A stretch of 64,000 nucleotides of DNA, from positions 248,001-312,000 of the forward strand of contig BCIV01000011.1 of NCBI GenBank assembly GCA_001600055.1, in the 5' to 3' direction. Position numbers and translations under genes: made by a program. Shown piece after piece: positions 27,838-43,020 of the stretch. Origin of the DNA: Filobasidium wieringae (Eukaryota; Basidiomycota; Tremellomycetes; Filobasidiales; Filobasidiaceae). The number at the start of each line of letters is the position of its first letter. Position 1 is the stretch's first letter. The notes beneath the pieces are model-generated. The model worked only from the letters and a program-made list of their open reading frames with translations, was not told the DNA's origin and searched no databases.

Positions 27838-28218
27838 GTAGGATGGAGGGAGGGTACGAGAGAGAAGGATGCGTGGCTTATGAAGCTTCTGGGTTGACGA
27901 CAATTGAGGAGCCGCAGTATTCGAATTCTGTGAAGGAAGGATCTATATGGAGGATATGAAGGGGCAGGTACATCAAACGTCATCTACGGTTCCGCTTGTA
28001 GAGTTATCCCGCGCTTCTAATTGGAACCGGCGGCTTCAAGCGAAGTTGAAACTCTAGATCGATCGTTTCACCCATGAATTCAGGCCTTTGAGCTGTACAA
28101 GTGGCCAGCAAGAAAGACTGAACTGTATCACAGCTTCGTTTGTACCACCACCTCATATCGAGAATCTGCAATCGTGTCGTCAAATAGAGCTTTCAAGAAG
28201 CTCCAGAAGCGCCCTGGT
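27838..28218. promoter_or_regulatory. divergent region between hydrolase and GCN1
   Basis: 380 bp serving both divergent genes. No clear motif was seen. GCN1 might start slightly upstream if a non-canonical first exon exists, but no in-frame ATG is present before 28219. Confidence 0.4.
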
Positions 28219-31200
28219 ATGCGCGCTGAATCAAAAGTAGAGGAATGGATGAACAAACCTGGAGAGGCCTCCGGTAGTGAAGACGAAGAAGACGTAGATG
28301 AGGAGGGAAGTCAGCCGGGCGAAGACGATTCCGACTTGCTCGACGTAGACTACGTCGAGCGACAGATATTTACCGGCCGTACGGGAGCCAGACTGAATTT
28401 CCTTAGGAATGGATTCGAAGTAACGCCTCAGAGTAAGTACTGCTTTGCCTTTTTTCTAGCACAGCTTGCCGTTTGCTGATTCTTGAGTTTTGATTGTGTT
28501 ACAGTCGCATCTAATGCTGAAGCTGCTGATCTGGTGAATGTTTTAACGCAAGCACTGCTGAGGTTATCAGACGAGAAATCGCACGAGGCTATCATCCAAG
28601 CTTTACTGAAACTGGCTATAAAGGAGAATGAGGCAGAAGGCGATGAGAAGAAGGATAGAATATGGAGAATGCTTGTTAAGTTCGCTCATGACGAGTTGGA
28701 GCGAGCCAGTTCGCCCAGTCGAACGTTAGTATAACATCACTCAAACAAACAATCTTTTTAGCTCACTGTCTGCATTCATCAGCGTCGCAACTGCTACTCT
28801 GTATCCTTTGATGACCCTTTCCCACACTCTCTTCGATACTCTAGCGAAAACGCAAGCAGATGCTTCTTCCAGCGTTCTATTCAGGCCCATAGTTATTGCG
28901 GTCGCGTATGCTTTGGACGGAGTTTTGACTCCCAGAGAAGGGAAGGCCAGGTTGAAGGATACAGTTAGGCAGGGAGCTTTGGTCAAGACAAGGCGTTTGA
29001 TTCGAAGCGTAAGCATCTCAAGATTTTTTCAACAGATAGCCTATCTTCATACAATCATCCTTTCATAGAACTATCGACTGATACCTCAAGTGGTGGATCT
29101 GCTACACGATTCACTGAGCAAATTCGGCGATCGCCTAGTGCCTATGTTGGGTGTAACTATGGGAGTATCGATTCGTCTCAAAGTTCTACCCAAGCAGAAA
29201 GATACGGACCAGGAACTGTTGAAGGACAAGTATGCGCGAGAGCAGAAGGATCGAATGATCAAGGTGTTTGTCGAGCGAGTATTAGGAGCAAAAAGCCCTC
29301 TTCCTCGGAGAGTATATGTACGGCCTCCAGCTTTTGATCGTTTCTTGAAAACAAAACTGAGTAGTCTTAACATGTGATACAGGGCGCGTTCGATGATTTA
29401 TGGACCACGCTGGCTGATAAGGATGTGTTCTTCGAGACGATCGTACCAGTCGTGGATAAGCTGTTGATCAGGAGCCCAGAAACCGGTTTACCAAGTGAGC
29501 TGTTGGTGCTGTGGTATTGGCCGTCGGGCAATAATTGACGAAGCTTCCATCTGATTCAGTCATCACCCATATCTGTGAGGCATCCGTAGTAGACATGTCT
29601 TCTTTGGTCCCAAAGAAACTCGTTCCCGGAATTATCTCTGCCTCAAAATCTGCTAAACGAGAAAACCGCTCGGCTGCAGTATCTTTCTGTCAGTCCTTGG
29701 CAAAACGACTGGACACGGAAGCTCAAGGTCGTTTGATGGGCGAGATCATGGCTCTTCCAGCAACGGGAAAGAGTACCGGACCGGACAACCGAATAGCATT
29801 GTTCAAGATGGCTGAAACCCTTTCTGCGAATGCTTTCACATCTGGGATCGCAGTCACAGCGCTCATACCACTATTGTCGAAAGAAGCGAATGAAACCGCC
29901 GCGGAGACATTGTGTGCAGCCTTGACGCCTCATCTGGCTCTATGCATCGCTGAGGACATTGGTCAGCCTGACGAAAAGCTGGTCGCCACCTTGAAGAAAG
30001 ATTTAACGTCGATGAAGACAACTTTGAGACGTCAGATCTTATTGGTGGTAGCCGACGCTCTTTGGTCGAGTGGAACCGCAAGCAATTGGTCTACTGCAGG
30101 TACTCGAATAGCCGAGTCAATTATGCCTAGTCTTGAAACCAGCTTCAAATCTGCTGCTGCCTTGACAACTGCCTCTGCTGTGAACACTTTGTTAGAGCCA
30201 TACATGGCTGTCGCTTTAGTGGCTGGCCCTCTGACAACCCATCTCTCCACGAACCCAAAAATCGCTGCTCTACAAAGCGCTATGACTGGATTGATGACAC
30301 TCAAACCTAAGGCATCCTTCCTGCTAAGCGACAAGACCTGGCGAAAAGTACTCGCAGACGAAACGGACCCTGCGCAAAATGCGAGAATTAGAGTCTGGTT
30401 GATCCGTGCTACTGAGGCAGCTATTGAGCGGAATGCGGGAGTCAAGGTCGATAGTTCCATTCGTTTGGCGACGATCGCCCCGCTAGTCGCCTCTATGTTC
30501 GAAGGAGTGGACCTAACGACAAGGCAATCTGCTTCGGAAGCTATACTCAATCTGATCGTCAAACAACCCAGATCTTTTGGGGATCATCTGGTACAGAGTA
30601 TTGACAGTTGGCTCGATCACCGAGCTGCAGAAACTGCTAGTCTCAGCGATCAGCGAGAAGTCGCTCTACGTTCTCAACAAATTCGGTTGATCAATCAGGT
30701 TCTGGTCGCATTGATCAAAGCTCGGCCGGAGACCAGCTCCTCGGCGAAACATCCAGCTGATAGTCTTCTGCTTCAAACCATGTTGCTCTCCCATCACCCT
30801 TACCTGGGTAGCAGCGCATCTCAGGTCTGGCTTGATACAGCTGTCACGGCCGGTCGGGATCCTGCTCTCATCGCCCAATCAGAAATGACCGAGATCACCG
30901 CAAAAATCCGCCAAACTTTGCAAGACGAGCATGCTACGACGGCACGCAAACAAGCAGGGTTAAGGGCTTTATCCACTGTGGTGTTCATAGCACCTCATCA
31001 TTACATCCCAGCAATCGTACAGGAAGTAACAGTTGATCTCGATCCGACTAGTCTGGACTTCATTGGAGAATTTGAGCTTGGGGTGTGGCAAACACCAGCG
31101 GACGAGACCTTCGTTGACGTTTTAAGTCAGAAGAAGGACGCTGCTCTGAACAAAAACAGCAAGAACTATGCTCAAGATAAATGGGACCAGGAAGTTAGGG

Positions 31201-34200
31201 ATTCTATTGCCAAGAAGAAGGCGGGTGGTACCTTGTCTAAGCAGGATCAAGCTCTTGTAACGGCGCAGGTCGCTAAAGAGGCTGCTGTTCGTGAGCAGAT
31301 GCAGCAGCTGCAAGAGAAGCTTGGGCGAACTTTGAGCGTTATTAGAGCATTGCTGAATGGTCGCACTGACACCTTCGATAACCACCTGCCGCAAATCCTT
31401 AGCGTTGTGATCGCTACAGCGATCGGACCAGCCGCATTTCTGGTTGGAGAGGAAGCGTGCTCTCTGTATCTGGTGAGATTCTCATTTGACTTCGTTGCCA
31501 CTTACTCGCATCCACTGACTGCCTCTGTAACCAAAATAGGATCTAAGTGTAGTCTGTGAAGACGTCGATCTGAATACAGCGAGGTTTGTGGGTGTGAACC
31601 TACTTCGCGCCCAAGGCAGTCAGACGATTCCCGAGAATCTTGCGATCGAGACTGTAAACGGTAAGTCATGGTATAGATCATAGAGAGATGTTTGCTTCCT
31701 GATTCTACGAAACTTTTTTTTTTTTGAATTCAGAGCAATGCTTGCGTGTCCTTCATAGCTTGCATACTAGCAGTCACCAAGGGCGTTTCACTCCTGCAAC
31801 TCTCGTTTATATCTTGCCTCTGCTTTCCTTGGTGATTCAGAACAACGGTCTTGGCGATGTGGACGAGAAGCGCGAGAATGCAGCCGAGCAGCTCACACTT
31901 GTTGTGGAATTACTGTCCAACATCGTTGGTAGCATGACGCCACTGAACTACCCTCGTATCACCGTTGCCAAGGACCTTATATCTGTTTCTGAGAAGCAAC
32001 CCAGTCAAGCCAAGGCTGGTATGGCCGCTCTTGCAAGGCTGGGCGAGACCATCCAAGACAACGCTACTGCCGAAGAAATCCAGGCATTGATTGGCGGAAT
32101 TCTCAGCCAAGAATCTTACGTTCGAAATGGATCTCTACAAGCGCTTCAACCTCTTGACTTAACGGAAATGGCGTTCTCAGTCGAGATATTCATCGGTCGG
32201 TTTGACAACGATGAACCTAATGTGGTCTTAGCGGATGCGATTTGGGAGGACAATGGTCTGGACGTGACCGATGACTACCTCGGTAAACTTTTACCGTTCC
32301 TTCAGCATGACGTTGCTGTCATCCGTAACGGAACTGCCCAAGCGCTTGCGGAAGCTACGGCTCAATTCCCAGAGAAGGTCAAGCAGGTTCTCGAAGGTTT
32401 ACGATCCCTATATGTCGAGAAGGCACGATTACTGGCTCCAGAGTTTGACCGTTTTGGTATGGTTATCCCTGAGTCTTTGGATCGACAAGATCCGTCTCAC
32501 GTAAGAGTAGCTGTTGCACGAGCTTTGCAAGCGCTCAGTCCTCTAATGGAGAAAGCCCACGTGCTTGCATTGTTTGATTTCCTTGTCATCGAGGAGGCTT
32601 TGGGCGATCGAGCTTCGGAAGTCCGTCAAGCTCTTCTGGCAGCTGGAGTTACTGTTGTTGACGAACATGGAAGTAAAGTGGTCAGCGAGTTGATTGCCCG
32701 ATTCGAGGCGTACCTCGCTCAACCTATCAACGCCTCTTCTGAAGCGGATTTCGTGAAGGAAGGCGTTATCGTTTTATTCGGACGATTGGCGAAACACTTA
32801 CCTGCCGGAGACAGACGAACTCCAATCATTATCGATCGTCTCCTTCTGGCATTAGAGACTCCTTCGGAAATTGTTCAAATTGCAGTCGCAGACTGTCTTC
32901 CACCGCTAGTCAAGGTAGCTGCGGATCAGACCGAGTCGTTCATTGAGCGTCTTTTCGAGACCTTAATCACCGGAGCGAAGTACGCGGCCAGACGAGGGGC
33001 AGCATACGGTCTTGCAGGTTTGGTGAAAGGAAGAGGGTTGTCGGTTCTGTCGGAGAACGAATTGATGGACAGACTCGCAGAGGCTGCGCAAGACAAAAAG
33101 AACTATCAATCCAGACAAGGTGCCGTATTCGCATACGAGACTTTGACTGCAACTTTGGGTCGAGCGTTTGAGCCATATCTAATTTCTGTCGTACCTTCGC
33201 TTTTGACCCTCTTTGGTGATTCCCAAGCTGATGTTCGGGAAGCGACATCTGACGCTGCCAAGGTCATCATGTCCAAAATCTCTGGACACTGTGTTAAGCA
33301 GATTCTTCCTCTCCTTTTGTCTGGATTGGAAGAAAAGCAATGGAGAACCAAGAAGGGTTCCATCGAGCTTCTCGGAGCAATGGCGTTCTGCGCTCCTAAA
33401 CAGTTATCTTACTCCTTGCCGACTATCATTCCCCAACTGACCGGCGTCCTCACTGACTCTCACGCCCAAGTCAGGACTGCTGCCAATACCAGCTTGAAGA
33501 CTTTCGGCGAGGTGCTCAGCAACCCAGAAATCAAGAAGTTGCAGCCCATCCTGCTGAAAGCATTGGCGGATCCCACGAGCAAGACCGCTCAAGCGTTGAC
33601 TTCATTGCTTGCTACTTCATTCGAGCATTACCTAGACTCGCCTTCGTTGGCACTAGTTGTCCCTATCCTTGATCGTGGTCTCAAAGAGCGCAGCTCCGAG
33701 ACCAAGCGGAAGTCGGTCCTTATCGTGGGCAACATGGCGTCCCTGACTGAATCTCGCGATTTCATACCTTATCTGGGACAATTACTGCCTCTTATCCAAT
33801 CGGTTTTGGTCGATCCCGTCCCTGAAGCTCGAGCCACTGCTGCTAAGGCCTTAGGAACTCTGGTCGAACGTCTAGGTGAAGAGAACTTCCCATCGCTTGT
33901 TACGAAGCTGCTTCAGACATTGCGATCAGATACTTCAGGTGTTGATAGGCAAGGAGCTGCTCAAGGTTTGAGTGAAGTTCTTGCTGGATTGGGAATCGGA
34001 CGTATGGAAGGCTTGCTGCCAGATATCATCACCAACGCTTCGAGCCCCCGTTCGTATGTCCGTGAGGGATTTATCTCGCTTCTCGTTTATCTGCCCGCTA
34101 CCTTTGGTCAACGTTTCGCGCCTCATCTTGGGCGTATCATTCCTCCAATCCTTGGAGGGTTAGCTGACGAATCAGAATACGTACGCGATGCGTCGATGCG

Positions 34201-37200
34201 GGCCGGTCGAATGATCATCTCCAATTACGCCAGCCGGGCTATTGAACTTTTGTTGCCAGAGTTGGAGCGAGGAATGCTCGATGCCGCTTGGAGAATCAGA
34301 CAGTCCTCTATCTCGCTTACTGGAGAACTCTTGTACAAGGTTGCCGGTATCAGTGGGAAGGTTGAAATCGAGGAGGACGAGGCGCCTGCCCAGCATGCCG
34401 AGACGGCCCGTAAAGCACTCACTGAAGCACTTGGTCAGGATGGACGCGATCGCGTTTTGGCTATCTTGTATATCGTCAGGCAGGACAACGTCGGTGCCGT
34501 TCGCCAGGCTTCCATCCATATTTGGAAAGCCTTGGTCCATAACACTCCTAGGACCACTCGCGAGATATTGCCCACATTGGTTAAGATGATTATCGATCTC
34601 ATGGGAAGTGAAGCTGCTGAGCAGCGCGACACAGCCAGCCGGACTTTGGCCGAGCTGTGCCGTAAGAGCGGTGAACGAATTTTGGCCGAGGTCATTCCAA
34701 TGCTTAGGAATGCTGTCTCTAGTCCTATCGCTCGCACAAGAGAAGGGGCATGTACAGCTCTTATCGAAGTCATGGAAACCTCTAACTCGGACCATCTTGA
34801 GGTACACGAAGATACTATCATCGAAGCTGTTCGTATCGCATTAGTGGATGAAGACTCCGCTGTCCGGGTGGCGGCCGCAGGCGCATTCGATGCTCTCCAG
34901 GAGATCATTGGAGCTAAGGCCATTGATCAGACCATCCCTTCGTTATTGGAAGCGATGGCTACACCAGGTCAAAAGTCTGAGGCAGCCTTGATGGCGCTCA
35001 AGGAGGTCATGAGTGTCAGTTTTGATCTCCGCATTTTCTTGTTACCTGGGCACTGAAGCGATTTTTCCTGCTGTTTATAGGTTCGAGCTACGACAGTTTT
35101 CCCGACATTGCTGCCTACACTAACAGCACAGCCTATCTCGGCATTCAACGCTCGTGCTCTCGCAGCGCTGGTGACGGTGGCAGGAGACGCCCTAAGCAAG
35201 CGACTTTCCGCTGTCTTGAAACCTCTGGTCAAGTCTCTTGAGCAAGAGAAAGATGAGACAATTAGGGAAGAAGTACAGACTGCAGTACGAGCTCTGTTGT
35301 CGTCGATCGAGGATGAGGAAGGAATGGAGTCGTTGCAAACTTTGCTGCTTGGATGGTAAGTGGTAGCGATCGAATCTTCACGATTCATGCTAAGTTCAGC
35401 AATCATTACAGGTCAAAGCATACTTCTCCCATCAGACGAGTTCAAGCTTGTAACATGCTCGCTACACTATGCGAGGTCGCCGAAGTGGATGCGTCAGAAT
35501 ATCGCGTGGACTGGGTCTCGCAGCTCTTATTATTGTTCAGCGACTCCTCCGAAGAGGCCGTTGATGCAGCCTGGGCCGCTCTTGATGCTCTGATCAAATC
35601 CATCCCCAAGGAAGAGCTAGAGGATTTGGTCGTGCCACTTCGACGTGGAATTGAAAGTGCAGGACCTCCGGGTCAGCATGTGCCAGGTTTCTCACGGCCG
35701 AAGGGCGCCCAGGCTGTCGTGCCTGTTCTATTGGCCGGTCTACTGAGCGGCACGGAGCAACAGAAGGAGCAAGCCGCTTTTGGTATTGGTGACCTCGTTC
35801 AAAGGACGTCTGACGCTGCGATCAAACCGTATATCATCCAATTGACCGGCCCCCTCATTCGAGTTATTAGTGGTGCTAACTTGGCTGCGCAGATCAAGGG
35901 TGCAATGTACGTAATTGTGTTCTTCTTGCCATTGCCATCTCACTAACGCGACGTTGTCTCATGCTGTAGCCTTTCCACTCTAACCGTACTTCTGCAATCC
36001 GTACCTTTGCTTGTCCGACCCTTCCATCCTCAGTTGACTCGTACTATGATCAAGAGCGTATCAGACCCTGCGAGCTTTTCGGTTCGCAGCAAAGCTGCGG
36101 CTGGTTTGGGAGAGTTGATGAAGCATCAGGTTAGTAATGCACTATCCCTACCGGAATGCTCTGCTAATGATTTGGAGTGATTGACAGCCAAGAGTGGACC
36201 CCGTCGTCACCGAGCTGCTTACTTCTGTGAAGCAGGTAGAGACTGACATCGCCCCATCCGTCGTTAACGCTTTGGCTGTCGTCACTGAATCGGCTAGCAA
36301 GAACATGGGATCCCAAATCAAAGACAACCTGAACGATCTTGTCGAGGAAGCTGAGGGCGCTACAGGTCAGTCAGAGCTCGATTTGTATCGCTGAAATAAC
36401 CCTGATGTCAAATCGTTTCTAGGTGCGTATTCTACTTCTATCAAGAAGCTCAAATCCGCACTTTCAGGAGAAAGCAAGGCCGCCGCTCCAGAAAAGCCAT
36501 CGTGAGTTTTTGTCTTCGGACGTGTCGAGGTGCGTTTGCTGAGACCAGCTGTCCATCATAGCCCTCCTCCCGCTCCCAAACCTGTTGCTGCACCAAAGCT
36601 CGCCAAGGTTGAACCTCCTGTACAAAAGGCAGAGCCAGTCCCAGAGCCTAAAGCCGTGAAGCCAGAGGCGTCGGCAAACAGCGAAAGTGCAGCGGGATCT
36701 TCCCGGAAATCTGAAGACAAAGCTGCTTTAATCCCAATCAGCGGTCCTCCTAAATTCACCTCAAAGGAAGAGCATGCCAACATTACCTCCACCACTCCTG
36801 CGTCTTTCAGCGACATTCCCCCTATCCTCAATTTTCAGCAAGAGGACGTGAAGATCGAGTTTGATCCAGCGTTTCAGGGGCAGAGCGAAATGAAGGGAAA
36901 ACTTTGGGTAACTGAAGCGTGAGTTCTCACCTTCAACCTGTCAGTCTCCTTCTTGTCTGACCTTTTTCTCCTGTCTATGACAGTGCTGTCTCATTCTTGG
37001 TTGATCCTTCGAGATCATCTGGATTCCAGTTGGACTTCCCTGCTATCACTCTGCACGCCGTCTCTCGAAATGCGGAGACTGGCAATTGTCTTTACTGTCA
37101 GATCGCTGACCCCTCTGTGGACCCACCGGCACCTTCTTCAGAAGATGATGAGGAAGAGTATGAGCCGATGAGGGAGATGAAATTTTACGTCAAGGATGAT

Positions 37201-37517
37201 TCATCTCGTTAGTAGCTGTTTTTGCATTTTTGAGCGATCAGCGAACTAATTCAGTTTACCTGACAGTCGACAAATTATACAATTCTTTCACCGACGGAGC
37301 GAACCTTCACCCAACACCGAGCGACCCGCTGATGCCATCATTTCCGGCAGCCTGGGCAGGTGGCGCCGTAGGTGGAACGAATTTGGATTTCGGTTCCGGA
37401 GGCTGGATCACCGCAGAGAATGCGCATGAGCATAACTTCGATGAGGAGGACAGTGAAGAACAGGAGGACGAGGAATCCGATGAGGATTCGGCGGAAGCAG
37501 GGTCTCAGACCGATTAG
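28219..37517 (+). CDS. GCN1: Gcn1 translational control HEAT protein fused to a C-terminal pICln domain
   Basis: Gcn1 sits on collided ribosomes and activates the eIF2alpha kinase Gcn2. Sixteen exons: 28219-28432, 28505-28724, 28762-29008, 29069-29311, 29383-29494, 29560-31472, 31540-31660, 31734-35014, 35081-35355, 35412-35906, 35970-36129, 36188-36365, 36423-36501, 36562-36918, 36984-37207, 37255-37517 (2793 aa, phases join). Residues 1-2512 are HEAT repeats, including the eEF3-like centre and, near 1780-1890, the Gcn2-binding stretch (GLADESEYVRDASMRAGR, AAWRIRQSSISL). Exon 14 continues through a Pro/Lys/Ala linker (about 2513-2572) into a pICln PH-like domain: PPKFTSKEEH, FSDIPPILNFQQEDV, GFQLDFPAITLHAVSR, REMKFYVKDD, acidic tail. 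No ATG exists for a free pICln. At the junction a TGA overlaps the donor, so intron retention would yield plain Gcn1. Confidence 0.85.
36502..36561 (+). other. intron joining GCN1 to the pICln domain; donor overlaps a stop codon
   Basis: The last GCN1-like exon ends CCA TC, followed by donor GTGAGT; unspliced, the same bases read TCG TGA, a stop. The 60-nt intron has a CTGAG branch-like element and ends CATAG. Splicing joins in phase to CCTCCTCCC and opens the pICln frame. All splice signals match the genome's norm. Confidence 0.75.
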
Positions 37518-37796: not shown

Positions 37797-39733
37797 ATGC
37801 GCTTTGCCGAATACCACTGCCCTCATCAGCACGCTCCCGGTGCCTCTTCGTCGAAATTACGACCTCCTTCAGATCCATCCTCGGCGTATGGTCTGCATCC
37901 CTTGGAATCGCTCTATTTCTGCGACCACTGCGATGCCATAAGGTGCCCTTCGTGTGTCACTCAAGAGATTGCAACATACTATTGCCCAAACTGCTTGTTC
38001 GAGGTTTCGAGCGGAAGCGTACGAGCGGAAAAGTCTCGGTGGGTGGAGAACTCAAATCTAGCCGTCACGTTGTTGATTCGTGGACTGACAATTTATTGGT
38101 AGATGCGCAAGGAATTGCTTCTTATGCCCAAGTCCTGCATGTTCTGCTATACTGGCGGTAGTCCCAACCGAGCAGACGAGTGATCGCGATCGGCTTATCA
38201 GGTACACACTGGCTTGTCCGACATGTAGATGGAACAGTAGAGGACTGGGAGAAGATTGGATATTCGATAAACCGACCGGGATAGGTCGTACGTTCTGAGC
38301 TCACGTAGATACCTGATGAGGATCTAACGATTGCATTTCCTTCAGACGAAGTTTTGGATCGAGAGAAGCGTAGATCAGATACCGTCGAATTCGATCATCT
38401 CCAACTACATTTCGACAAATACCTTTACACTCTTCGTTCAGCATTGAATCCCAATAGTGCGGCGAATGGTCCTCAGCAACCAACTGCCCCTCTTCCTTCG
38501 AACGATCGTCGACGACAACCCAGCCGTAACACTGCTGCTGCAGCTATTGCTGTGAAACTTGCCGCGCGCAAGGTCAGCGAGTCTAAGTTTTTCAAGCAGA
38601 CGGAGGATAGGATCCGACCTAAGAAACCTCAGATCCTACCCGTGCCGAAAAGTGAAGATCCGCCTGTGTATCTACCGAGACGTTCGTGGGGACCTGACGC
38701 AGACAAAGTGGCGGACCGATCCTTAAAGTCAGAAGATTCGCTTTTGGATGCCTTGCAAGGTCTAGATGGGCTTAACCTCGATCAGTGTGAAAACGTGCCA
38801 GCACCTTTGAATTCTGTCTGGAATATGCCTTCATTACGCGCTTCCGGTCTTAAGGACCTCGAACCTGAGAGGGTACCGCTACGAGCCAAGCTCACGAAAC
38901 GGTGTGCGGTCTGCAATCGCTCTGTTCTCAGGCCGGAGCCTAAAGCACAAAGCCTGAAGTATAAAGTCAAATCATTCGCGCCGATTTATATTCCTAGCAT
39001 CGAGCTAGGGAACAGAAGGAGATTGTCAAACAATACGACAGATCAGTCTGGAGACGTCTCGAGGAGAATGGGGTCTCTGCCACGAATAGCTGAGGAGAAA
39101 CAAACGCTCGATACACCTTTGAGACGCGGAGAAACTGTAAGCAAGCCTGACCGAGACACAGGTAGAGGATCCGTTCTAATCTATCCTGATGTTTCAGTAT
39201 GCCTTTCAATTAGCGTTTACAAATCCTTTGTTGACGCCTACGACTATCAAGCTTTCCTTGATACATGTTAGGCCCCTAACAGATTTGGAAATCGTCATGC
39301 ACAACACTGAGTTCGGACAGGAGGGATTCTTGGATGAACCTGAGCGCGATGGAAAGGGGATTGAGGACAGGACGACCGCTCGGTCTGCTGCGCCAAGCCG
39401 ATCAGGCGTAGAACAGCGTGACCATATCTCCAAAGTTCCCTTCTCAGTCCGTGTAGGAGAGTGGGCCAAGTCTAACCTACAAGTAGGCCAATCTGACACT
39501 ATCCCTAGCCCGATCTCTATTGACCTAGTTTTGCATTCCCTTGGACATAGTTCGATCTCGATGTGTACATGACGTATCCCTGCGATGCACAAGACATCCT
39601 TACCAACAGCGCTTCCTCTTCCTCCTTAGCTTCAGCTCCGATACAGACCTCCTTCAGAGCTTTCCCATTTCAGGTCAGAATAAACCTAGGTTACGTAGAG
39701 CATGTACCGGTCGATAGCGTAGATCTTGCCTAA
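37797..39733 (+). CDS. dynactin subunit p62 (Dctn4)
   Basis: Pointed-end subunit of dynactin, the dynein cofactor. Exons: 37797-38038, 38103-38284, 38346-39136, 39198-39482, 39551-39733 (560 aa, phases join). The N-terminal zinc-binding region is diagnostic: LYFCDHCDAIRCPSCV, EIATYYCPNCLFEV, CARNCFLCPSPAC and YTLACPTCRWNSRG. A second cysteine pair (CAVCNRSVLRP) and the beta-rich C-terminus (YAFQLAFTNPLLTP) follow. The final exon may end differently: a GTCAGA donor at 39673 could extend the protein into the frame at 39742-39930, so the stop at 39733 is provisional. It starts 280 bp after the GCN1-pICln stop on the same strand. Confidence 0.8.
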
Positions 39734-39926: not shown

Positions 39927-40714
39927 ATGAGGTGAGTTATTCTGCCCGAATCCGTCGAGCTTTTATAGACCTAAAGTGATTCTATCCACAAGTCAACTCG
40001 CCAACATGAACAAATCGGATATGGACGAGGGTCAGATCAAAGAGATGGAAGAGCATGAGATCTCTCAGGGTCCTCTTTCGGTTCTACAACAGAGTGTGAG
40101 AAATAACACGCAAGTCCTGATCAGTTTGAGGAACAACAAGAAACTGTTGGCGAGGGTGAAGGCATTTGACAGGCACGCCAATATGGTAAGTCTCCCCGTT
40201 CTGGCAACTCGATCGTTGGTGTTTCAGACGTGACATGCTGGGGGCGAGTAGAGAAACTAGGCTCCACGAAATTACGCTTATAGCAGTGATGCTGGAGCTA
40301 TCCCTCACCTTCGAGCGATAACTATGTGAAACCACCTTTGCCGACTTATGCTGACCCAGAAACATGTCTTTGCAAATGCAGGTACTAGAGAACGTGAAAG
40401 AGGTTAGTTGAGTTAGATTCACATAAAATGCCGGAGCTAATTTATCGCTCGGTTTGACTAAAGATGTGGACCGAGATACCAAAGGGAAAGAACAACAAGC
40501 CTGTGAACAAAGATCGATTTATCTCGTACGTGTCAGGCTAGGTAGCAAGTAGCATCCGACGTATTTAACGCTACCATTTACGATAGAAAAATGTTTCTTC
40601 GTGGAGATTCAGTGATTTTGGGTAAGTCAGCTTCTGCTGCCATCGGATATGGGAACGCGTCGTTGACTTGGATCGTTACTATCGAAATCGACAGTCCTCC
40701 GAAACGCTGCTTAG
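39927..40714 (+). CDS. SMD2: spliceosomal Sm protein D2
   Basis: Core Sm-ring component of U1, U2, U4 and U5 snRNPs. Exons: 39927-39931, 39993-40185, 40382-40402, 40464-40525, 40587-40621, 40695-40714 (111 aa, phases join). The first coding exon is only 5 nt (ATGAG), joining to give [14 protein letters not shown], close to the start expected for basidiomycete SmD2; a 21-nt microexon encodes VLENVKE. The Sm1 motif is [21 protein letters not shown] and Sm2 is [14 protein letters not shown]. The C-terminus ends AA shortly after Sm2, slightly shorter than human SmD2 (118 aa). The 196-nt second intron is longer than usual here. Its 3' end lies 72 bp from the convergent IPK1 stop. Confidence 0.92.
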
Positions 40715-40786: not shown

Positions 40787-43020
40787 TTATAAAATATGTT
40801 GCTGGTCAGCGGTATCCGTAAAATCCTTTCCAGTCATACGAGGTGCTGCTCTCAGCCATTCCAAGAAAACCTTGTGCTCGTCCTCTATCGATTGCAATCG
40901 TTTTGTTTCCCTTGTAAGTACGGCCGTGGTATCCGAGCCTAGGGGTATCATCGGTAAGACCGGGATCGTTTTACCACGACGCCCGCCCGCTCCGCAGAAT
41001 ATGGTTGTTCCATCGTCGTGCTCCCGGTCGGTTTCCTGCTTCTTCCATCGAGCAAACTTCGACATCGGTTTGATGTCTAGATCCACCAAACCGATGGAGT
41101 ATTTCTTGACGTCTTCTTTGGGCCAGGCTATGATAATTGAACAATCTTTAAAGATAGCTGATATAGTATATGCTATCCGCTTTCCTCGAGTGTCCGAGAC
41201 ATGCGGCCAGGCCTTCAATAGCGTCGCAAGTTCTCCCGCTTCCGCTTCTTCTTCTGCGTCCGGGATCTCGTTGTCTTTGAAAGAGAGTCTGTCGTAGCCT
41301 TGTTGAAGTTGAAGGAGAACATCGAGGACTCTACTGTCTCCGAGTATATCCCCTAGCATATGTGATAGCCGGTTTCCAGAAGTAAGAGATTGATCAATAT
41401 TGTCGGAAAGGCCGTCCTCAAATACCCTCAAATTATTGCCAGCTTGACCAGCATGCCAGTCGCGAACAAGATACTGCAGAGCGGTATACCTAGGCCGATA
41501 GTCCGTTGAATACAGATCTATCGGGCAAAATCCTGGTTGTGGTTCATTCCCGCTACGTTTCAAGCAGTACCGGCAAACAGGTCCACTTGAAAATCCTACT
41601 TTAGGCTTGAGCTCGACCGCAAAATACCCTTTGCCTCTGTGTAGATTCTCAGTCAAAGTGATCCAAGCGTGGGGTCCACTGTCAAGGTCTGCGTTCTTCC
41701 CCTTTGTCCGATGCGGCGGTCGGAATGGGCGACTCAACGCATCCAGTTGCTGGACCCAGCTGGACTTGACGCTGATATGTTCGTTCAACGGTAGAAGGCG
41801 TTCCGCTTGAACCCCACACAGCACCTGCCGGAGCCCGGTCTCGGTCCAATACACGTTGGCCGGTGTAGGGGATTCCGACGATACCTTCTTTATCCTAAGT
41901 ACTTTTCCCTTGAAGAGGACGTCTGATCCCTCATAGGCGAAGACCACGTTTGCACCACCTTCCGCAATATATTTCCATTCTTTCGGATCGGTAGATTCAA
42001 GCAAGTGATCGGTAGCAACTCGTTTTCGGGGAGATTCCGGCGATGTAGATACTTTTCGCTTGAGACTGGTCGAGCTTAAGCAAGACGGTACCACTGGTTC
42101 TGACTCCGGAAGAGAGTCTTTTTGTTTGAGACTAGTCAAGCTTGGGCTGGAGGGTACCACTGTTTCTGACTCTGGAAGAGAGTCTTTTTGTTTGAGGCTG
42201 GTCGAGCTTGGGCTGGAGGGCGCCACTGGTTCCGAGATCTCTTCGTAGTCATTAGATTCTACGATCTCGAGCTGCATCTCGACATCATTCGGAGATGATT
42301 CATTTCCACCGATATTCGATTCCGCATGACTCGCCGTTGAGATAGCCCAAGGAGGAATGATGGTCGGAGGAGTGATGTCTTCCCTTCTTCTTGGTATCGA
42401 AGGCCTCATTGCGAGGACTCGTTCACGTGCGTAGTTCCAGGATCGAGGCGAAGGGCTAGGTTGGAGGTCCGACCCGATAGAAAGTGCCCGTAGAGGAGTT
42501 TGAGGAGGCCGTACTGCGGTTACTGGGGTCGAATGAGTTGTACGGGTCGAATGATTTGAGAGGGTCGAAGGGCTTGGTGGAACAGATATAGCTTCCACTC
42601 GGGAAATTGAATCTTGAATATATAGGAGCTCTTCGTCGTCCGTATCCGATCTGGTAGCACTGATCGGAATCGGAGATTCCTTTCCTCCTGGATGCCGAAT
42701 AGCAGGAGAAAGGAAAGCTAGAGCTGGTGGCCGTCGCTTTGATTTTGGAGATCCTTTCTGCATCTTCCTCTTCTCCCATTCATCTTCCCATTCTATCTTT
42801 GCAGTGATCGAGGATCAGAACGTCAATAAGGTGATGACGAACCAACACGATACTTACCGATCCTCGTGCAGGATTGAGCCATGGGACATTGATAGAACAC
42901 TCTGCCTCTGTTTCTCTCAGTCTTGCTAGTCATGCGCTTGAACAAGAGATTGTGACCAGGACATCTGGGAGTGGTTGATGGCCTCTGAGAAGCCGGTTCA
43001 CTATTGACGAACTCGTTCAT
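40787..43020 (-). CDS. IPK1: inositol-pentakisphosphate 2-kinase with N-terminal GRF zinc finger
   Basis: Converts IP5 to IP6 (phytate), needed for mRNA export and signalling. Minus-strand exons 43020-42858 and 42792-40787 (722 aa, phases join). Residues 20-60 form a GRF-type zinc finger: CPGHNLLFKRM, NRGRVFYQC, C, then IEWEDEW completed across the intron by the TAG acceptor. A disordered linker with three 22-residue repeats follows. The kinase spans about residues 265-720: G-loop EGGANVVFAYEG, catalytic RIKK, ELKPKVGF, zinc-binding CRYC and the terminal SIIIAW..IGLVDLDIKP. The kinase is complete. I know IPK1 mostly as a stand-alone kinase, so the GRF module, usually found on DNA-repair enzymes, is notable. 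Divergent from the importin gene. Confidence 0.88.
42051..42245 (-). repeat. three tandem 66-bp units in the IPK1 linker
   Basis: Three imperfect 66-bp units encode 22-residue repeats of the form E-x-V-x-P-S-S-P-S-x-T-S-L-K-Q-K-D-S-L-P-E-S; the third has diverged. GAGAGTCTT recurs exactly 66 bp apart (42112 and 42178). The repeats alternate Ser-Pro with basic residues and are likely to vary in copy number between strains. Confidence 0.8.

Follow-up and report, generated by a model that had tools for sequence, protein, structure and literature searches.

Gene organization at the GCN1-pICln locus

The window analysed here is a stretch of 64,000 nucleotides from Filobasidium wieringae. On its plus strand, GCN1 and pICln sequences are connected by splicing in a model of 16 exons with one uninterrupted frame, 2,824 residues long when counted from 28120 (Table 1). 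Residues 1 to about 2,500 of this chain are Gcn1, and the remainder ends in pICln. The coordinates given for such a chain by an earlier sequence-only reading were right, in that the spliced frame passes from Gcn1 into pICln without interruption. The ATG at 28219 is the earliest in-frame ATG past 28120, and the full-length product starting there is predicted to contain about 2,790 aa (~300 kDa). The 5' end of the Gcn1 model is uncertain, as are the donor choices 29311/29317 and 35005/35014, which allow four combinations; the junction with pICln is unaffected by these alternative donors. Besides the junction intron, the model contains 14 introns of 37-73 nt with GT...AG ends. The shortest of all 15 introns (37 nt) lies at 28725-28761. 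Rfam models gave zero matches in the window.

Table 1 Features of the GCN1-pICln locus (positions in the window)
Feature	Position	Strand	Basis or remark
Gcn1 body, HEAT-repeat exons	28219..36365	+	Spliced model and domain matches
Gcn1 exons, first six	28120-28432, 28505-28724, 28762-29008, 29069-29317, 29383-29494, 29560-31472	+	
Gcn1 exons, next six	31540-31660, 31734-35014, 35081-35355, 35412-35906, 35970-36129, 36188-36365	+	
Exons around and after the junction	36423-36501, 36562-36918, 36984-37207, 37267-37517	+	
Nearest upstream in-frame ATG	36305..36307	+	Inside the preceding Gcn1 exon
Last Gcn1 exon	36423..36501	+	AYSTSIKKLKSAL, then low-complexity SGESKAAAPEKPS
Junction intron	36502..36561	+	60 nt, phase 2; donor GTGAGT, acceptor CATAG
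In-frame TGA within donor GTGAGT	36503..36505	+	Gcn1 ends here if the intron is retained
Linker rich in Pro/Ala/Lys/Glu	36562..36732	+	About 55 residues, ATG-free; codon score
pICln N-terminal part	36733..36918	+	PISGPPKFTSKEEH...TPASFSDIPPIL...
pICln PH-like core, exon two	36984..37207	+	Similarity searches
pICln final exon	37267..37517	+	NLHPTPSDP, GGWITAEN and acidic tail; stop TAG 37515-37517

The Gcn1 part resembles yeast GCN1 and the eEF3-like HEAT family in having the Gcn1_N domain (PF12074, 154.6 bits) and the HEAT core (PF24987, 276.9 bits; EF3/GCN1 HEAT models). A query made of the Gcn1 end plus pICln matched five of 7,987 scored candidates, these being the candidates with the most words in common, among which linker words may have displaced relatives; the C-termini of all five are those of ordinary Gcn1. 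The best species-named match among the five is the Gcn1 of Cryptococcus sp. DSM 104549, with 63% identity over its residues 1045-2231 (the longest match), 67% over 2232-2449 and 36% over 364-1003.

The similarity to Gcn1 reaches about AYSTSIKKLKSAL in the last Gcn1 exon and stops there. The codon score of this exon is +9.9 bits in the model frame, compared with -9.9 and +0.5 bits in the other two. When aligned with four unfused relatives (P0005 was left out), the chain breaks off 90-93 residues before their ARPARE-type end. The canonical C-terminal end (..ARPARExR..) is absent from the Gcn1 of the window. Unlike canonical Gcn1, the protein has lost its final ~90 residues, ARPARE motif included, and runs into pICln. 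As to the RWD-binding region (yeast 2052-2428), the C-terminal HEAT region of the window Gcn1 aligns to residues 1958-2410 of a Gcn1-bearing PDB chain. A candidate for the missing C-terminus on contig C18, the sole genome-wide match (E 0.057), was rejected.

The pICln part was matched by the Voldacs profile PF03517 at 80.5 bits against a gathering cut-off of 22.1, in agreement with the earlier description of a Pro/Lys/Ala linker followed by a full pICln with its acidic tail. Solved pICln PH-like domains were also matched (8g1u_C, E 3.3e-13; 1zyi_A, E 9.1e-11). With pICln/CLNS1A, the methylosome subunit, this part has in common the PH-like core, the TPxSFSDIPPIL block and the acidic tail, but it has no start Met of its own and is preceded by the linker and Gcn1. 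An ELSEVGR-type segment, present in the Agaricomycete proteins, is missing, and the C-terminus is an acidic stretch. In stand-alone pICln proteins, a Met lies 12-16 residues ahead of the conserved SxEEH block in 13 of the 13 aligned, which were drawn from 15 matches after P0019 and P0020 had been left out for a truncated or divergent N-terminus. At the usual start position, the window reads DKAALIPISGPPKF (DKAALIPIS), without a start Met. An independent pICln of ~200-290 aa with its own start was therefore not found.

Junction intron and coding linker

The junction intron contains a CTGAG branch-like site close to its 3' end, and its splicing removes an in-frame stop. The unspliced frame stays open past this TGA, so that stop readthrough would also get to pICln in frame. 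When read unspliced, the 19 codons after the TGA have a weakly positive codon score of +3.6 bits, which counts against an intron, and composition thus leaves room for the unspliced route. Since the TGA lies in the donor of a 60-nt intron and the frame after it is open, the fusion hinges on splicing or stop readthrough, and one or the other is predicted to choose between Gcn1 alone and Gcn1-pICln. Splicing would drop the Gcn1 stop and join the shortened Gcn1 through a ~55-residue linker to a complete pICln, and retention of the intron would yield Gcn1 alone.

We then scored the linker by Gcn1 codon usage. In the pICln frame, positions 36563-36730 gain +22 bits, a value that none of 5,000 dinucleotide shuffles attained in any of the three frames. 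Among the controls, the best window had 4.8 bits for Gcn1 read off frame, 0.8 for three putative intergenic stretches taken on both strands, and -12.9 for the introns when concatenated; Gcn1 read in frame has a mean of 17 on a codon scale trained on this same Gcn1. All four consecutive pieces of the linker (33-45 nt each) score positive. When amino-acid content was ignored and synonymous codon choice alone was considered, 24 of 5,000 random versions reached the value of the linker.

The claim that no ATG occurs in any frame before the conserved start of pICln holds for the plus strand, where none was found at 36406-36773, between the ATGs at 36405 and 36774. By length, this ATG-free run of 369 nt ranks eighth among the gaps between the 985 plus-strand ATGs of the window and is on its own notable but not extreme. 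As the linker is coding and free of ATG, the start must come from the Gcn1 frame unless a non-ATG codon is used. Ribosomes in the linker would accordingly arrive either from Gcn1, by splicing or stop readthrough, or from a non-ATG start.

Copy number and comparison with other species

To place the locus in its genome, we searched the assembly (19.76 Mb, 33 contigs) and found one pICln locus and one Gcn1 locus. A separate and intact pICln gene, named in the sequence-only reading as evidence against a fusion, was sought genome-wide in family and DNA searches and with a protein of Cyclocybe as query, and only the locus in the window was accepted. A match on contig C16 (E 0.067, 29% identity) lies in a long low-complexity reading frame and was not accepted as a second pICln. 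Further HEAT matches to Gcn1 are partial, on contigs C7 and C4, with 24-32% identity.

The same reading had proposed a search with the linker plus pICln in other Tremellomycetes. With this query, 15 of 1,230 candidates among short proteins matched, all of them separate pICln proteins of 180-288 aa. They come from Agaricomycetes (the class to which we take the named sources to belong), Rhodotorula and unnamed sources, none being named from a Tremellomycete. With the pICln core as query against proteins of 945-3008 aa, none of the 656 scored candidates matched at E<=1. No second Gcn1-pICln fusion thus appeared in the protein searches. The fusion could extend beyond one species, since the database may contain few close relatives.

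One look-alike was found in the PDB. Chain 8i9x_LR (2,898 aa, 'Ribosomal protein L19'), presumably from Chaetomium thermophilum, consists of Gcn1 HEAT repeats followed by eL19 at 2731-2824. Chains of 192 aa containing eL19 alone exist under the same molecule name (7olc_LR), so the join in 8i9x_LR is probably a gene-model artefact in which neighbouring genes were merged in annotation. It shows how claims of Gcn1 fusions can go wrong. The two cases are alike in that Gcn1 HEAT repeats precede the product of another gene; they differ in that the joined domain of the window has lost its own start codon and that its linker is coding. By title, we found no paper on a Gcn1 gene fusion in fungi, and none combining Gcn1, Chaetomium thermophilum and L19. 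Another PDB chain, 9l5r_c (592 aa), is named sterol reductase and is joined to SmD2; it and 8i9x_LR are both probably merged gene models of the source genome.

Probable fusion, alternative readings and possible role

Together, our results suggest that the locus is one transcription and translation unit in which GCN1 carries the only pICln found in the genome; we give this explanation as a whole a probability of about 0.72. That the fusion is the encoded product is, judged from sequence, quite probable. The natural fusion claimed by the sequence-only reading is well supported by the coding linker without ATG, the lost Met, the single pICln locus and the lost Gcn1 end; this support comes from sequence, and on this point the claim has to be softened to admit a possible internal start at 36305. 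We infer that the cell makes the full-length product and that this product is stable. It would combine two known families in a new domain architecture and not be a new kind of system.

One alternative is that a transcript begins in the 3' end of Gcn1, is translated from the ATG at 36305 and is spliced at 36366-36422 and 36502-36561. The predicted product has 323 aa (34.4 kDa) with a short Gcn1-derived N-terminal piece, and such a start would equally explain why the linker is coding and why pICln has lost its own Met. However, a promoter would have to lie in a conserved coding part of Gcn1, and the absence of the canonical Gcn1 end would go unexplained; we consider this alternative unlikely.

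Alternatively, the fusion could be a precursor whose linker is cut once synthesis is complete, whereupon Gcn1 and pICln act apart. Ubiquitin-ribosomal protein fusions provide a model for such processing, and the low complexity of the linker is consistent with it. As to the encoded product, this alternative overlaps with the preferred explanation of one translated unit. We know of no protease site or processing domain in the linker, which counts against cutting, and its chance appears to be small.

It is also conceivable that two genes lie in tandem, with Gcn1 stopping at the TGA and pICln on its own mRNA with a start that was missed. The earlier claim that there is no promoter-sized gap is weak in this respect, as the 227 nt from the TGA to the start of pICln at 36733 are similar to the 279-nt gap that separates pICln from the next gene. 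The start could be a non-ATG codon, for which six in-frame near-cognate codons are available (36530, 36536, 36539, 36656 and the ATCs at 36731 and 36737), or it could be hidden by an assembly error, since one base change makes either ATC an ATG and a sequence error there could mask the start. However, the linker ahead of the two ATCs is strongly coding in frame, unlike a 5' UTR, which disfavours a hidden start, and the junction fits a good phase-2 intron. Two tandem genes are therefore a rather improbable explanation. Finally, an assembly artefact joining two loci is barely credible: although the data are those of one assembly, the join lies in the linker of a consistent coding frame with a normal intron, and the stretch is present once in the genome.

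If GCN1 and pICln do form one unit, its possible function deserves consideration. Gcn1 is a collision sensor and pICln is the chaperone by which new Sm proteins are taken off ribosomes, and natural fusions often flag proteins that work together. We know of no earlier link between Gcn1 and pICln, their shared mention being a proteomic list. On the release of Sm proteins from the ribosome, PMC5463183 and PMC6385987 both cite Paknia et al. 2016. SmD2 is thought to be held by the ribosome after translation until SmD1 and pICln free it (PMC5463183), Sm proteins (SmD1/D2) are described as released from the ribosome by pICln (PMC5463183, PMC6385987), and new Sm proteins are delivered to PRMT5 by pICln (PMC8287938). 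A ribosome-bound pICln is thus sensible, since pICln is reported to release Sm proteins from the ribosome.

One possible mechanism is that the Gcn1 HEAT solenoid would keep pICln on ribosomes that are translating or have collided. There, pICln would take newly made Sm proteins (SmD1/D2) and hand them to the PRMT5 methylosome. This role for a Gcn1-held pICln is tentative. The factor site and the P-stalk of the ribosome are not the peptide exit. According to published work, ribosome binding needs the N-terminal three quarters of Gcn1 (PMC11088878), yeast Gcn1 residues 2052-2428 bind the RWD domain of Gcn2 (PMC8040806), and on the leading ribosome the C-terminal arm of Gcn1 gets to the factor site and appears to touch the P-stalk (PMC8040806). 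Simple capture of a nascent Sm protein on the same ribosome is disfavoured by this position of the arm; capture might happen on nearby ribosomes within a polysome, or through general enrichment.

It is tempting to speculate further that all pICln is a tail of Gcn1, which would tie snRNP assembly to ribosomes and to collision or amino-acid stress, and that the spliceosome sets the amount of pICln, since the stop that releases pICln-free Gcn1 lies in a splice donor. From the anatomy of the junction, intron retention would give pICln-free Gcn1, so that splicing capacity could tune the supply of pICln. This is a doubtful extension; if true, there would be a feedback among snRNP supply, splicing and pICln. 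The fusion, if true, would offer a concrete way for translation stress to affect the supply of spliceosomes.

The genome contains a PRMT5 gene and three RWD-domain loci, so partners for both pathways seem to be present as judged by these matches. RWD domains are carried by Gcn2, Gir2 and Yih1 (PMC8040806, PMC11088878). A search for the SMN Tudor domain gave no match in the genome and was uninformative, as its control was unmatched as well.

A gene for SmD2, a client of pICln, begins on the plus strand at 40006-40185, with further exons following, ~2.5 kb beyond the stop codon of pICln. At least one gene separates the two: a dynactin p62 family gene lies between them on the plus strand, spanning at least 37797-39271. 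The proximity of pICln and SmD2 is possibly due to chance or possibly reflects a functional cluster. An inositol-pentakisphosphate 2-kinase domain (159.6 bits) is encoded on the minus strand at 40790-42814.
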